Source: Dehalococcoidia bacterium
Lineage (GTDB): Bacteria; Chloroflexota; Dehalococcoidia; Bin125
Length of the DNA stretch: 45,439 bases
Reading direction: 5' to 3'
NCBI GenBank assembly: GCA_022825855.1
Contig: JAJDWB010000004.1
Coordinates: 1 to 45,439, forward strand
Shown piece by piece: positions 30,511 to 36,823 of this stretch. The position numbers and the translations under genes were made by a program. The first letter of the stretch is position 1. Every line of letters begins with the position of its first letter. The notes under the pieces are model-generated. The model saw nothing but the letters and a program-made list of their open reading frames with translations. It had not been told where the DNA came from and searched no databases.

Positions 30511-30651
30511 ATGCCGAAACGCACGTATCAACCGAAACGAATTCCGCGCAAGCGGGAGCATGGATTCTTGAAGCGAATGTCAAGCCGTGGGGGTCGGGCC
30601 GTGCTCAAGCGCCGCCGAGCCCGCGGCCGCAGGCGACTGACAGTCGTCTGA
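30511..30651 (+). CDS. rpmH: 50S ribosomal protein L34
   Basis: This 46-residue, very basic protein starts [19 protein letters not shown], followed by [21 protein letters not shown], the classic L34 pattern. GGGAG lies just before the ATG. It is the first gene of the conserved rpmH-rnpA-yidD-yidC-jag cluster that lies near the replication origin in most bacteria. dnaA, often just upstream, is not here. Confidence 0.97.
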
Positions 30652-30764: not shown

Positions 30765-31295
30765 ATGCGGACCAAGCAGCCGACGACCAAGCCGAGCGAA
30801 CAACAGACGACCAGGCCGACCGTGAAGCGCGACGAGCAGCGGCTGCGGTACAAGTCCGAGTTTGACGCAGTGTTCCGCGAAGGCGTGAGCAGTTCAAGCG
30901 GCGTACTCGCGGTGCGAGCGAGAGCCCGCGTCGCCGAGGCGGACACGCGAGGCTCAGACGTTTCACGTGAAACACCCCGGGTCGAGCATCACGCGGCCGA
31001 TCTTCCCTGCCGGTTCGGGTTCGCGATCAGTTCGGGTCTGGGCGGCGCAGTGGTGCGCAACCGAATTCGGCGGCGGCTGCGAGCGTCGGCCCAGCGGCTG
31101 AACCGGGAAGGCGGCTGCCGGGGACTCGATGTGGTCGTGATCGCGAGAACAGGCGCGGCCGCGGCCGACTTCCAGAGGTTGGATTCGACGCTATCGAGAC
31201 TGGTGCGGCGCTCGATGCGGCAAGTGCAAGATGTGGAGGACGCCTCGCCTCGGGCGGCTACGTCCGAACTTCACGGGTCGCGAGGTGGGTGTTGA
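30765..31295 (+). CDS. rnpA: Ribonuclease P protein component with parS-encoding insert
   Basis: This protein of about 176 residues assists the RNase P RNA in processing tRNA 5' ends. The family signature GGAVVRNRIRRRLR and the N-terminal RLRYKSEFDAVFREG are present. Between them, a hydrophilic insert of roughly 25 residues (after VRARARV, up to CRFGFAIS) separates the strands compared with usual RnpA. Its DNA contains a parS site that encodes VSRET. The start is uncertain: ATG 30765 is used, while GTG 30822 (VKRDEQRLR) would match typical RnpA N termini better. It follows rpmH by 113 nt and overlaps yidD. Confidence 0.88.
   Translation: MRTKQPTTKPSEQQTTRPTVKRDEQRLRYKSEFDAVFREGVSSSSGVLAVRARARVAEADTRGSDVSRETPRVEHHAADLPCRFGFAISSGLGGAVVRNRIRRRLRASAQRLNREGGCRGLDVVVIARTGAAAADFQRLDSTLSRLVRRSMRQVQDVEDASPRAATSELHGSRGGC
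30959..30974. promoter_or_regulatory. parS site inside rnpA (15 of 16)
   Basis: CGTTTCACGTGAAACA differs from the parS consensus TGTTTCACGTGAAACA only at the first base. It is inside the rnpA frame, where it encodes VSRET. ParB, encoded 5 kb downstream, is the expected ligand. Confidence 0.9.
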
Positions 31296-31648
31296 CCTTG
31301 TACGGCGAGACGCGTGAACGGCTCGCGCCCCGGCGAGAACTGGCGCGAGCGACGAACCGGGCGGCGATCGTGCTGCTGCTCGGCTATCAGCGGCTGCTGT
31401 CGCCGATGATGGGCGCGATGGGCTCGCAGTGCCGGTTCGAGCCGTCCTGTTCGCAGTACATGATCGACGCCGTGCGGGCTCGAGGCGCGTTGGTCGGGAT
31501 CGGTCTGGGGCTCTGGCGTCTGGCGCGCTGCAATCCATTGAACTCCGGCGGATACGACCCTGCGCCTCAAGCGCGCGATCGGCGCCGCGAACATGCCAGA
31601 CATGCGGCGAGACCGCGCGAGCGGAATGTTTCACGTGAAACAGCCTGA
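31289..31648 (+). CDS. yidD: Membrane protein insertion efficiency factor YidD
   Basis: This 119-residue protein helps YidC-dependent insertion. The core GYQRLLSPMMGAMGSQCRFEPSCSQYMIDAV followed by RCNPLNSGGYDP is the YidD signature with its conserved cysteines. A GTG start overlaps the end of rnpA by 7 nt. A C-terminal, arginine-rich extension of about 25 residues lies beyond the conserved core, and its last residues (NVSRETA) come from a parS site. That tail also overlaps the start of the next gene. Confidence 0.94.
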   Translation: MLTLYGETRERLAPRRELARATNRAAIVLLLGYQRLLSPMMGAMGSQCRFEPSCSQYMIDAVRARGALVGIGLGLWRLARCNPLNSGGYDPAPQARDRRREHARHAARPRERNVSRETA

Positions 31649-32891
31649 ATCGCGTCGTCCGCTCATGCGCTTCTGGGCGCTACGCTCCATAGGGGACCGT
31701 TCGCGAATCCTGCGCCGACGAATCCTGATGATCGGAGCGTTGTTGCTCGCCATCCCCTTGATCGCGGCCTGCGATGTCGCCGACCAGCCTGACGGCTGGG
31801 CCGCGCCGACACCCGATCCAATCGAGCCCGAGACCAGGCTGATCGCGCCGACCGGAGACAAGACAGTGGTCGCGGTCGAGCTGCTTGACGGCAACCTGGG
31901 CGCAGCTGCCTGGGAGTTTCCCGACGACGACGGCTGGTTTCCCGGTCTCGACGCCGAGATTGAACCGGTGGCGTTCTACGCCGATCCGGTCTGGGTGCCT
32001 GAAACGGACGAATGGCTGCTGGCCGGCTACTCCGACGGCGTGCTCTACGCCGTGCAGCGCGACGGCGAGTCGGCGCGGGCGATCTTCGAGACCGGAGAGA
32101 GAATCGTCGCCGACCTGATTGTGCAGGGCACCGTCGTCTATGTGGCCGACACCGGGTACCGAGTGCACGCCGTGGACATCGAGCAGCCCGGCGCGGCGTT
32201 GTGGACCTGGAGCGGCGACTCCGACTTGCAAATCTGGGGCGGCCCGGCACTGGTCGACGCCGACCGCGGCCGCCTGCTGATCGTGGCCGGACTCGACGGC
32301 AGGGTGACCGCGATCCATCTGGACGGCGACGCGGCGGGCAGCGAGGCCTGGCAACTGGAAATCGAGGCCGGCATCGCCGGATCCATCGTGGCGGCCGACG
32401 GGATCGTCTACGTCGGCGGTCTCGACCGCGTCTTCTATGCACTCGATGCGGCGACAGGTACGCAAGTCTGGACGGCGCAGGCGTCGCACTGGATCTGGGG
32501 CACGCCGCTCGTTCGCGACGGCGTGATTTACATGACCGATCTGCGCGGCAATGTCTACGCGCTTGACGCCCTGACCGGCGCTGAGCGCTGGCTGCAGCCC
32601 TTTACCGCCGACGATCGCATTCGCGCCCAGCCGCTGTTCGTCGACTTCGAGGGCGAGTCTGAGAGCAGGACGGGCGGGATTCTCGTGATCGTGGCGCGCG
32701 GCGGCACGATCTTCCAGCTCAACGCGGCCGACGGCTCGCTGCTCCGCGAGTTCCGCCTTGAGAAGGCCAAGGATCTCATGGCCAATGCGATCCTCAAGGA
32801 CGATCGCATCCTCGTCAGCGACGAAGACGGCGTGCTCTACGCCGTGCTGCTGGGCGCCAACTCGGCGGTCCGCCTGTATCCCCCTAACTAG
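31626..32891 (+). CDS. PQQ-like beta-propeller lipoprotein
   Basis: This 421-residue lipoprotein has a lipobox IAAC followed by Asp. The body is made of repeated blades with VVYVADTGYRVHAVD, IVYVGGLDRVFYALDAATGTQVWTA, VIYMTDLRGNVYALDALTGAERW and similar units, the PQQ/BamB-like propeller pattern. ATG 31626 (MFHVKQ) lies in a parS site and overlaps yidD by 23 nt; ATG 31665 is an alternative. No catalytic motif is visible, so a scaffold or envelope-assembly role is likely. Its position between yidD and yidC is unusual and suggests a link to membrane protein insertion. Confidence 0.85.
   Translation: MFHVKQPESRRPLMRFWALRSIGDRSRILRRRILMIGALLLAIPLIAACDVADQPDGWAAPTPDPIEPETRLIAPTGDKTVVAVELLDGNLGAAAWEFPDDDGWFPGLDAEIEPVAFYADPVWVPETDEWLLAGYSDGVLYAVQRDGESARAIFETGERIVADLIVQGTVVYVADTGYRVHAVDIEQPGAALWTWSGDSDLQIWGGPALVDADRGRLLIVAGLDGRVTAIHLDGDAAGSEAWQLEIEAGIAGSIVAADGIVYVGGLDRVFYALDAATGTQVWTAQASHWIWGTPLVRDGVIYMTDLRGNVYALDALTGAERWLQPFTADDRIRAQPLFVDFEGESESRTGGILVIVARGGTIFQLNAADGSLLREFRLEKAKDLMANAILKDDRILVSDEDGVLYAVLLGANSAVRLYPPN
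31627..31642. promoter_or_regulatory. Perfect parS site in yidD and at the next start codon
   Basis: TGTTTCACGTGAAACA is an exact match to the parS consensus. It encodes VSRET near the yidD C terminus and, in another frame, lies across MFHVKQ at the start of the beta-propeller gene. It is 668 bp from the site in rnpA. Confidence 0.97.
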
Positions 32892-32911: not shown

Positions 32912-33859
32912 ATGGACATTCTCGACTTCATCTGGAACGACATCCTGATCGGCCCGATCATGAACGGGCTCATCGTGATCGCGCACGCGGTCGACGACAA
33001 CTACGGCGTCGCGATCATCCTGTTCACCCTGATCGTCCGGGTGATCACCTATCCGCTGACGCTGCGCCAGCTTCGGGCGACTCGCTCGATGCAGGAAATG
33101 CAGCCGCGGATGCAGGAGATTCAGAAGAAGTACAAGGATCCGCGCCGGCGCCAGGAAGAGTTGATGAAGGTCTACCGCGAGGTGGGCTTCAATCCGCTCG
33201 GTTGCCTCTGGCCGTTGCTGGTGCAGATGCCAATCTGGATCGCGCTCTACCAGGTATTGCGCCGGACCCTGGGCGACACGCCCGAGCAGCTGCTGCGCCT
33301 GTCCAGCGACCTGTACGACTGGGCCTATATCACCTCCGCGATCCCGATTAATCGGGACTTCCTCTTCTGGGACCTCGGCTCGTCCTCGCTCGAGCAATCG
33401 CTGCCCCTCGCCCTGATGGTCGGCGTCACGGCCTACATCCAGCAGAAGGTGTCGACCGCCCGGATGGGTCCGCGCGACGAGCGCTCGGAGTCGATGAACC
33501 GCACGATGCTCTGGATGATGCCCTTCATGTTCGGGTTCTTCACGCTGCAAGTCCCGGCCGGACTGGGGCTGTACTGGCTGGTCACCTCGATCTTCACGAT
33601 CCTCACGTCCTGGTACTACTACTTCTACCGCCAGGGACTGCGCTGGTCGTGGAAGTGGCTGCTGTCCTCGGAACCACTGCCGGCGCCCGCTTCGGCGGTT
33701 GCCGACGGCGCGGCCGTCGTCGAGGCGTCGCCCGGCTCCGACGAGTCGGTGGAGTCCGAGGACGATTCGGAGCCGGAGCCGCAGCGACCCGCACGCCGCT
33801 CATCGAGCGCGGCCCGCCGCCGACGACAGAGAAGGAGACGCGCGAGCCGGTCGCGCTGA
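32912..33859 (+). CDS. yidC: Membrane protein insertase YidC/Oxa1
   Basis: This 315-residue insertase is of the short form, without the large periplasmic domain of proteobacterial YidC. Arg43 in LFTLIVRVITYPLTLRQL is the groove arginine. The two-helix cytoplasmic hairpin (EMQPRMQEIQKKYKDPRRRQEELMKVYRE) and GFNPLGCLWPLLVQMPIWIALYQVL follow, and the helix MMPFMFGFFTLQVPAGLGLYW is typical. An acidic linker and an Arg-rich tail (ARRRRQRRRRASRSR) end the protein, as in insertases that contact ribosomes. Confidence 0.97.
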   Translation: MDILDFIWNDILIGPIMNGLIVIAHAVDDNYGVAIILFTLIVRVITYPLTLRQLRATRSMQEMQPRMQEIQKKYKDPRRRQEELMKVYREVGFNPLGCLWPLLVQMPIWIALYQVLRRTLGDTPEQLLRLSSDLYDWAYITSAIPINRDFLFWDLGSSSLEQSLPLALMVGVTAYIQQKVSTARMGPRDERSESMNRTMLWMMPFMFGFFTLQVPAGLGLYWLVTSIFTILTSWYYYFYRQGLRWSWKWLLSSEPLPAPASAVADGAAVVEASPGSDESVESEDDSEPEPQRPARRSSSAARRRRQRRRRASRSR

Positions 33860-33941: not shown

Positions 33942-34976
33942 ATGACGAATCGGAATCCGATCGAGCAATCGGGGCGGACCGTGGATGACGCGGTCCAGTC
34001 GGCGCTGCGCCGTCTCGGACTGAAGCGCGCGCAGGTCGACGTGGAAGTGCTGGACGAAGGACGAACCGGCATCTTCGGGATTGGCCACGCCCAATCGCTG
34101 GTCCGGGTCACGCCGCGTGCGGATGTCCGCGGCAACACCGCGGCAACCGAGTCGCCGGCGCTGCCGAAGATTGACGACTACTCCGACCTCACCGAAGTCG
34201 AAGCCGGGTCGCGGCAGCGCGGGGCCCGCCGACGAGCTCCGGCACGTCGAGCGGTACGTGCGGGCGCGGCCGAACCGGCCGCCGATTCGGACGATTCGCA
34301 GCGTGAAGTCCAGCCCGATCACCGCTCGCGATCCCGCTCGCGCCAGCCGGCGCGCGCCGAAGGCGGCCGCTCCGACCGCGGTCGGAGCCGGGGCCGGTCA
34401 CGGGGACGCAGCGAATCGCGAGAGCGCCAGCCCGCGCGCGCCCCGATTGGTCCCTTCGAGTTGCTGGCCGACCCGGACTTTGAGCCCAACGAGGATCCGC
34501 GCGAGTTCGCCGTCGAAGTGTTGACGGATATCGCTCACCAACTGGGTTTCGACGTGGAGGTGACGGCGCGCGAGCCGGCCACGCCGATGGACGGCCTCGG
34601 ACACGCCGTGGCCGTGCTCGACGTGAATCCGGTCGGAGAAGAGGACCTGGGGCTGCTGATCGGTCGGCACGGCTCCCACGTGGCAGCGCTGCAGTACGTG
34701 GTCAACGTGATCGTCAGCCGCGCCCTGGATGGCAACAATCCGGTCACCGTGGACGTCGACGGCTATCGCCGGCGGCGCGAGACGGCGCTGGTTGAGATGG
34801 CCCAGCGTGCGGCCGCCGAGGTGCGGGAGCACGGCGAGCCGGTCACGCTCGGCGTGATGCCGGCGGCCGAACGCCGAATCATCCACCTGCAGTTGCAAGA
34901 AGACTCCGAGCTGCGGACCGAGTCGTTTGGCGAGGGTTCGTCGCGTCGTGTGCGGATTCTGTACCGTGACGAATAG
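33942..34976 (+). CDS. jag: Jag/KhpB RNA-binding protein
   Basis: This 344-residue RNA-binding protein has three parts. The Jag-N domain (about 8-60) includes EVLDEGRTGIFGIG. An Arg/Ser-rich linker (about 85-165) contains RSRSRSRQ and RGRSRGRSRGRSESR runs. The KH domain has the GRHG loop (LGLLIGRHGSHVAALQYVVN), and the R3H domain ends in ERRIIHLQL. It is expected to bind RNA with KhpA. The RS-rich linker is longer and more basic than usual. It is preceded by yidC and followed by parA. Confidence 0.95.
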   Translation: MTNRNPIEQSGRTVDDAVQSALRRLGLKRAQVDVEVLDEGRTGIFGIGHAQSLVRVTPRADVRGNTAATESPALPKIDDYSDLTEVEAGSRQRGARRRAPARRAVRAGAAEPAADSDDSQREVQPDHRSRSRSRQPARAEGGRSDRGRSRGRSRGRSESRERQPARAPIGPFELLADPDFEPNEDPREFAVEVLTDIAHQLGFDVEVTAREPATPMDGLGHAVAVLDVNPVGEEDLGLLIGRHGSHVAALQYVVNVIVSRALDGNNPVTVDVDGYRRRRETALVEMAQRAAAEVREHGEPVTLGVMPAAERRIIHLQLQEDSELRTESFGEGSSRRVRILYRDE

Positions 34977-35042: not shown

Positions 35043-35849
35043 GTGAGCGTGGTTGCGGTTGCGAACCAGAAAGGCGGCGTGGGCAAAACCACGACTGCCG
35101 TCAATCTGGCTGCCGCGACCGCCGAGATGGGCCGACGCACCCTCGTCATCGACGCCGACGCCCAGGCCAACGCGACCTCCGCCCTGGGCGCACAGCACGC
35201 CTCGCCGCGGATGTACGACGTCCTGCTGGGCGAGGCGTCGCTCAGCGACTGCATTGCGACTACGGCCTGGCACAATCTCGATGTCGCCCCGTCTTCCATG
35301 GATCTGGTCGCGGCCGAGATGGAGCTCGCGTCGCGGCCCGAGCGCGAGTACGTCCTGCGTAGGCTGCTCGCCGAGGTCGCCCCGCGCTACGAACTGGTCT
35401 TGATCGACTGCGGACCGTCGCTCGGCCTGATGACGCTCAACGCGCTGGCCGCTGCAGACGGCGCGATCGCTCCGGTTCAGTGCGAATACCTGGCGCTGGA
35501 AGGATTGTCGGCGCTGTTGGAGACGATCCGCCGGGTTCAGACGCACGTGCATCCCGGACTGCAGCTCCTCGGCGTCGTGGCGACCATGTACGACGGTCGC
35601 ACGCGGCTCTCGCAGGATGTCGCGGCGCAGTTGCAGTCGCATATCAGTTCTACCTTCGACACGATTATTCCACGTTCGATTCGCCTGTCGGAGGCGCCGA
35701 GCCATCAGCGCCCGATTGTTGACTACGCGCCGACATCGCGGGGCGCGGAGGCCTATCGCCAGCTGGCGGGAGAGTTGCTGCGCCGCCTCGCGGCACTGCC
35801 GACGTCAACGATCTACCGAGACAGCCCCGTGGATGGAGTCAGGGCATGA
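35043..35849 (+). CDS. parA: Chromosome partition ATPase ParA (Soj)
   Basis: This 268-residue MinD/ParA ATPase moves ParB-parS complexes along the nucleoid. The deviant Walker A NQKGGVGKTTTAVNLA (about 8-23), VIDADAQANAT and the Walker B-like VLIDCGPSLGLMTLNAL are intact. It lacks the extra N-terminal HTH of plasmid ParA, so it is the chromosomal type. It starts at GTG and overlaps parB by 4 nt (ATGA). Confidence 0.97.
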   Translation: MSVVAVANQKGGVGKTTTAVNLAAATAEMGRRTLVIDADAQANATSALGAQHASPRMYDVLLGEASLSDCIATTAWHNLDVAPSSMDLVAAEMELASRPEREYVLRRLLAEVAPRYELVLIDCGPSLGLMTLNALAAADGAIAPVQCEYLALEGLSALLETIRRVQTHVHPGLQLLGVVATMYDGRTRLSQDVAAQLQSHISSTFDTIIPRSIRLSEAPSHQRPIVDYAPTSRGAEAYRQLAGELLRRLAALPTSTIYRDSPVDGVRA

Positions 35850-36823
35850 CCGAGTCGGAGAACTCGACGCCAACGCCCGGCTCGCAGGTGGTTGGGTCGC
35901 GGCCGGCACAACCGGAAACCCGGGACGAACGGGGTAGAGGGCGGCTAGGCCGCGGCCTCGACTCGTTGATTCCCACATCGCCCAATCAGGATTCGAACGA
36001 CGGCAGGCTGCAGGCACCGATCGGATCGATCAGCCGCAATCCGTCGCAGCCACGCCAGGAGTTCGATCCCGAGGCGCTGGAAGAGTTGGCGGCCAGCATT
36101 CGCGAGCATGGTGTCTTGCAGCCCCTCTTGGTCCGTGCGCAAGGAACGGGCGGTTACGAGCTGGTCGCAGGCGAGCGGCGTTGGCGGGCGGCGAGTCTGG
36201 CCGGCCTGGCGACCGTGCCAATCGTGGTGCAGCCGGAGCTGGAGGACGACGAGGCGAGTCTGACGCTGGCGCTGGTTGAGAACCTGCAGCGCAGCGACCT
36301 GAATCCGATTGAGATGGCAACGGCCTTCGAGGAGCTGACGGAGGCGGGCTGGACACAGGAACGAATCGCGAAAGAGATCGGCAAGAGCCGTGCGGCGGTC
36401 GCCAATCTGCTGCGCCTGCGGCGCCTGCCCGAAGCGATCCAGTCCATGCTCGCCTCGGGCCGATTGAGCGAGGGGCACGGTCGTGCGCTGCTGGGAGCGC
36501 CTGAGTCGCAGCAGGTGGGACTGGCCCGACGGGCGCTTGAGGGCGGCTGGACCGTGCGTCGACTGGAAGACACGGTGCGGGCGCTGGACCGGCCCGATCC
36601 GGCGCCCGCGACGCGAGTCGCGTCGCCGCAGATGCTCAGCGCCGTCCGGCGGCTGGAGTCGGCTCTGGGGACCAGGGTGGAAGTGCGATCGGCAGGCAAG
36701 AGTCGATCCGGCGGCCGCATCGTGATCCACTGGTACGACGAAGAGCAACTCGACGCAATCGCCTCGCTGCTGAGCGGCGGCGGCGCAGAGGTCGAGGACG
36801 GCGCCGACGAGTTCGGCGTCTGA
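35846..36823 (+). CDS. parB: Chromosome partition protein ParB
   Basis: This 325-residue CTP-dependent clamp binds parS. Box 1, QPLLVRAQGTGGYELVAGERRWRAASLAG, contains GERRWRA of the CTP-binding pocket. ENLQRSDLNPIEMATAFEEL is box 2, and an HTH follows (TQERIAKEIGKSRAAVANLLRL), as in Spo0J. The C-terminal dimer region is present. The two parS sites in rnpA and yidD are its expected targets. Confidence 0.97.
   Translation: MTESENSTPTPGSQVVGSRPAQPETRDERGRGRLGRGLDSLIPTSPNQDSNDGRLQAPIGSISRNPSQPRQEFDPEALEELAASIREHGVLQPLLVRAQGTGGYELVAGERRWRAASLAGLATVPIVVQPELEDDEASLTLALVENLQRSDLNPIEMATAFEELTEAGWTQERIAKEIGKSRAAVANLLRLRRLPEAIQSMLASGRLSEGHGRALLGAPESQQVGLARRALEGGWTVRRLEDTVRALDRPDPAPATRVASPQMLSAVRRLESALGTRVEVRSAGKSRSGGRIVIHWYDEEQLDAIASLLSGGGAEVEDGADEFGV

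Follow-up and report, generated by a model that had tools for sequence, protein, structure and literature searches.

The window, a stretch of 45,439 nucleotides from a Dehalococcoidia bacterium, contains two 16-bp palindromes within coding sequences, one in rnpA and the other at the 3′ end of yidD. Both are very probably parS sites of the chromosomal ParABS system, the yidD site being the ancestral anchor and the rnpA site an extra copy, and the encoded peptide is in that case tolerated by the proteins rather than required.

Gene cluster and positions of the parS sites

The sites are located in a cluster with the order rpmH-rnpA-yidD-lipoprotein-yidC-jag-parA-parB, which was unchanged in every genome of the genus where it was traceable. 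The features are as follows.

30511..30651, + strand, rpmH (bL34), found in all relatives aligned
30765..31295, + strand, rnpA, RNase P protein, PF00825 over the cut-off; putative ATG start, as chosen
30930..31004, + strand, 25-codon loop insert of RnpA carrying parS; predicted by AlphaFold to have no regular structure between strands, with low pLDDT
30959..30974, no strand assigned, parS copy in rnpA, CGTTTCACGTGAAACA, 15/16 with the mismatch at the outermost position
31289..31648, + strand, yidD; putative GTG start, as in the ORF list
31568..31648, + strand, C-terminal tail of YidD after GGYDPAP, ending in NVSRETA-stop; predicted with low confidence to be mostly unstructured
31626..32891, + strand, putative gene for a propeller-like lipoprotein, lying between yidD and yidC; its candidate start uses parS DNA
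31627..31642, no strand assigned, second parS copy, in the 3′ end of yidD, TGTTTCACGTGAAACA, 16/16, the ancestral site
32912..33859, + strand, yidC
33942..34976, + strand, jag/khpB-like gene, named by synteny and sequence pattern
35043..35849, + strand, parA, with the MSVVAVANQKGGVGKTTT motif
35846..36823, + strand, parB, TIGR00180 at 172.6 bits, alignment with 6t1f

RnpA matched B. subtilis RnpA (1a6f) and further RnpA chains, and homologs of yidD were found in 88 of the 100 relatives. The gene between yidD and yidC presumably encodes a lipoprotein, a name based on its repeat pattern and the lipobox LIAAC. Its candidate start, ATG-TTT-CAC-GTG-AAA (MFHVKQ, 31626-31643), is formed by the yidD-end parS. 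The A that creates this ATG was present in most members of the genus, with GTG in G004 and ACG in G007 and G008. The parS sites are near parAB: the starts of parA and parB fall 3.4-4.9 kb downstream of the sites, in agreement with the distance of about 4 kb originally predicted. In G004 (G004:C33) and G009 (G009:C51), both of which have dnaA and the rpmH-parB cluster on one contig, the two are about 150-170 kb from each other, and the two classical origin markers are therefore apart in this genus.

Two parS sites in the genome

The prediction of two parS sites embedded in rnpA and yidD was exact in both coordinates and mismatch counts. The search for additional sites that had been proposed with it found nothing else: in the 2.82-Mb assembly, the rnpA and yidD sites were the only parS at ≤2 mismatches, and a reversed control pattern gave 0 matches in the same whole-genome scan. 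The agreement with the 16-bp chromosomal parS consensus (TGTTTCACGTGAAACA) exceeds chance, as 0.00006 exact sites and 0.004 sites at ≤1 mismatch are expected in 2.82 Mb by base composition, and 0.04 matches at ≤3 mismatches are expected from shuffled windows. The genomes used were all drafts, most probably MAGs; the assembly is 96% complete, and additional parS on the missing DNA are therefore possible. The two sites are spaced by 668 bp, and G011 has both sites with equal spacing.

Both sites translate as V-S-R-E-T in the frames of rnpA (30765-31295) and yidD (31289-31648), as had also been noticed beforehand. Within coding sequence, only two frames of the parS palindrome are open, giving xFHVKx or xVSRETx; the third contains a stop. 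Because just two intragenic readings are available, the presence of VSRET in both genes needs no explanation, and an identical peptide would turn up by default in about half of such cases.

Conservation of the yidD-end parS at the DNA level

The yidD-end parS was present in all 14 genus genomes in which yidD was assembled, and 28 of the 31 relatives whose parS and yidD shared a contig had a parS ≤250 bp from the yidD 3′ end. As judged from sequence comparison, the yidD site is ancestral. YidD ended in VSRET plus one residue in 14/14 genus genomes. The VSRE codons, GTT-TCA-CGT-GAA, were invariant in all 14, and the codon for T was ACA in 13 and ACC in one. In the operon, which has a GC3 of 82%, GTT, TCA, CGT, GAA, and ACA account for 7, 4.5, 10, 30, and 8% of the codons of their amino acids, respectively, with a product of 7e-6. 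Since 28 of the 30 other invariant YidD columns varied synonymously, the missing variation in the palindrome is not due to shared ancestry alone.

In sister genera of the same family, the yidD-end palindrome was read as FHVK (G018 and G019) or as CFT-stop (G017), providing the yidD stop codon in the latter. Elsewhere in the class, parS at the yidD junction was sometimes within YidD and sometimes in the lipoprotein start, in different frames. The invariant rare codons together with the other frames in the sister genera indicate that selection acts on the DNA, not on the peptide, and the variation of frame and position across the class makes the VSRET peptide incidental. Selection on VSRET as a short motif, with the palindrome as a by-product, would account for the peptide common to both genes, but we give it hardly any credence: synonymous codons never shift to common alternatives, the same DNA encodes other peptides in related genera, and many class members carry parS at the same junction outside YidD. 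For YidD, peptide selection is refuted as far as sequence can refute it.

The yidD site was expected to lie in a C-terminal extension, and it indeed forms the last residues of one. The linker ahead of it ranges from about 3 to 26 residues across the genus, and the YidD model was of low confidence (pLDDT 66). That parS shaped the YidD tail, a tolerant position as proposed, is well supported by the nucleotide-level invariance, the variable linker, and the other frames in sister genera. The site sits on the yidD/lipoprotein junction; the residues it adds would fall within the YidD tail, which is not conserved, and in the initial part of the following protein.

Cognate ParB and its linkage with parS

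The window ParB aligned with Caulobacter ParB (6t1f, E 1e-50). The Noc binding site (NBS) is of the TATTTCCCGGGAAATA type; an NBS/Noc identity was considered and rejected, as the site is parS-type and the ParB has R, L, R, and G versus Q, K, K, and R in Noc. The genome encodes a cognate ParB with the parS-specific residues R173 and G201. In Caulobacter ParB numbering, the window ParB retains Arg 173 and Gly 201, shows the RXXG pattern, and has Leu and Arg at positions 179 and 184, respectively; Arg 173 and Gly 201 are reported to be invariant in ParB but replaced in Noc, and positions 179 and 184 to be variable (PMC7383237).

Among the 100 relatives, 32 had both parS (≤1 mismatch) and a strong ParB, 3 had parS only, 8 had ParB only, and 57 had neither. 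This co-occurrence was significant over all relatives (Fisher p 2e-15) and outside the genus (p 3e-9), in counts that ignore relatedness, and several of the discordant assemblies were incomplete.

Known ParABS biology suggests that ParB binding, spreading, and segregation would take place at both sites. ParB encoded with ParA 3-5 kb downstream would load at both parS and then spread from them, and ParA would move ParB and thereby segregate the origin region. The sites might instead be mainly ParB operators of the rpmH-rnpA-yidD-yidC-jag-parAB operon and not a centromere, in line with their location inside the gene cluster encoding ParB and with the repression by ParB of genes adjoining some parS in P. 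aeruginosa (PMC7022226). We consider this role quite improbable, as several relatives have a single site and, because only two parS were detected in the genome, the centromere role would be left without another site.

The rnpA parS and the loop insert of RnpA

The rnpA site was found only in the window's genome (G000) and G011 and, judging by this distribution, is recent and rare. It is dispensable because it is absent in G004 and all other relatives examined. Between G000 and G011, the rnpA parS was identical at 16/16 positions, the rest of the insert at 38/59 (64%), and the four-fold sites of the gene at 67%; this conservation rests on two genomes, with P about 9e-4 under the flank identity.

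In the AlphaFold model of RnpA (pLDDT 87), the insert is flanked by two strands (26-32 and 61-66), with the RNR helix (73-92) following. VSRET occupies residues 44-48 in a low-confidence coil in the middle of the loop, with a pLDDT of about 59 for the block and mostly >90 for the core. The predicted location in an insert ahead of the RNR helix was thus confirmed as a 25-residue stretch between two strands, without counterpart in most of the genus, and the rnpA parS would be an extra copy within an expanded hairpin loop of RnpA.

The loop had a length of 25 residues in G000 and G011 and 22 in G004, versus approximately 5-10 in other genus members. Neither the insert nor the rnpA parS was seen in those other members of the genus whose rnpA was assembled or in the related genera examined, and no decayed parS was detected in the G004 insert at ≤4 mismatches. 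The expected co-variation of insert and parS therefore held only in part: the two are absent together in other relatives, but G004 has the insert without parS, so they do not strictly co-vary. The same insert without parS-like DNA in a relative, the finding named in advance as contrary to a shaping role of parS, is to this extent provided by G004 RnpA. It is plausible that parS DNA shaped the RnpA insert.

When 84,980 species genomes were searched for parS at 56-86 nt before the RNR-helix codons, a range that does not extend elsewhere in rnpA, four matches were obtained, and the sole match in rnpA was that of G011. The matches in Bradyrhizobium, Oceanimonas, and Ruminococcus were rejected, having no RnpA translation. 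A scan of 400 phylum genomes at a gap of 50-80 gave 0 matches, but this range excludes the window's own gap of 82 and is uninformative here. Titles and abstracts of open-licence papers yielded no relevant literature on VSRET/FHVK peptides or on parS with rnpA or Chloroflexi.

The rnpA site could also be a relic or a chance palindrome unused by ParB, with the yidD site alone working. Its single mismatch and its absence from other genus members with rnpA assembled are consistent with this, as is the sufficiency of a single parS in other bacteria (PMC4368675, PMC7083940). We regard it as unlikely, given the chance expectation of 0.004 sites at ≤1 mismatch in the genome and the 16/16 conservation between two diverged species; moreover, G007, G008, and G019 have this same 1-mismatch variant as their only detected parS (≤1 mismatch).

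History of the rnpA site

A concatenated five-gene tree grouped G000, G011, and G004 with 100% support and, also with 100%, paired G011 with G004, leaving G000 outside. The yidD, yidC, and rnpA trees taken singly were ambiguous or preferred other pairings, and an independent site count of the dnaA region mildly agreed with the pairing of G011 and G004 (195 versus 139/134). Given this branching, the rnpA parS was most simply, and most likely, gained in the common ancestor of the three species and then lost in G004, which kept the loop; possible alternative histories are a local exchange involving G000 and G011 and prior growth of the loop.

In the last of these, the RnpA loop grew first by neutral protein drift, and parS arose or was captured later in the tolerant loop. 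This order of events carries appreciable, though minority, weight. The G004 insert, located at the same place and free of parS-like words, speaks for it, but the tree and the dnaA-region count favor an ancestral parS, and the insert is not found in any species that clearly branched off before parS appeared. It is possible, rather than probable, that parS, as a cis-acting centromere element, itself seeded the loop expansion in RnpA, an essential protein, and that the loop then outlived it in G004; in this reading, parS would also have dictated the YidD C-terminus and the lipoprotein start in relatives class-wide, in all three frames.

Comparison with known parS sites

Intragenic parS is already well documented, and both sites of the present genome are intragenic. 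In P. aeruginosa, 9 of 10 parS were predicted within coding sequences, some near oriC; they are likewise 16-bp palindromic ParB sites, mostly intragenic. Most of them were mutated without altering the proteins; no site-linked insert or tail is described in the available portion of that report (PMC4368675). The parS1 site of C. glutamicum, in trpCF, is likewise intragenic and was bound by ParB in ChIP there, but it is the only one of 10 parS in a gene, versus both sites here (PMC7083940). For repABC replicons, it has been hypothesized that positive selection favors additional parS even inside genes, where they may arise de novo; these are plasmid-type replicons, in contrast to the chromosomal site here (PMC9040568). 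T. thermophilus parSm in parBm is likewise a parS within a par-locus gene, although it is a 14-bp megaplasmid site in parB itself, unlike the sites here (PMC4409726).

New here are the class-wide anchoring of parS to the yidD end, where one family uses all three reading frames, and the very rare placement in rnpA. The former provides a clear natural case of a peptide fixed by a DNA-binding site rather than by protein function. For annotation and the building of protein families, a terminal VSRET or FHVK near parAB is to be taken as a parS footprint, not as a protein motif, and parS of uncultured Dehalococcoidia can be sought by inspecting the yidD 3′ end.

Other parS arrangements in relatives

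Six species of the genus (L095, L097, L098, L100, L102, and L103) had a second parS 69-186 bp past the first, always at a multiple-of-three distance and read as FHVK in the lipoprotein start region. Perfect parS numbered 10 in G069 (including L022), spread over many contigs, and 6 in G061, whereas genomes of the window's genus have 1-3 sites each. In G003, the only parS (≤1 mismatch) was near a contig end (L129 6563-6578) with no recognizable yidD beside it; the assembly is fragmented, and no yidD was detected in it. G016 had a 2-mismatch parS beside yidD. G087 (L124, reverse complement 903-918 and 1703-1718) had a perfect parS just upstream of rpmH and a 2-mismatch site right after yidD. In G017 (L149 6259-6274), parB was closely followed by a second perfect parS, some 5 kb away from the one at yidD.
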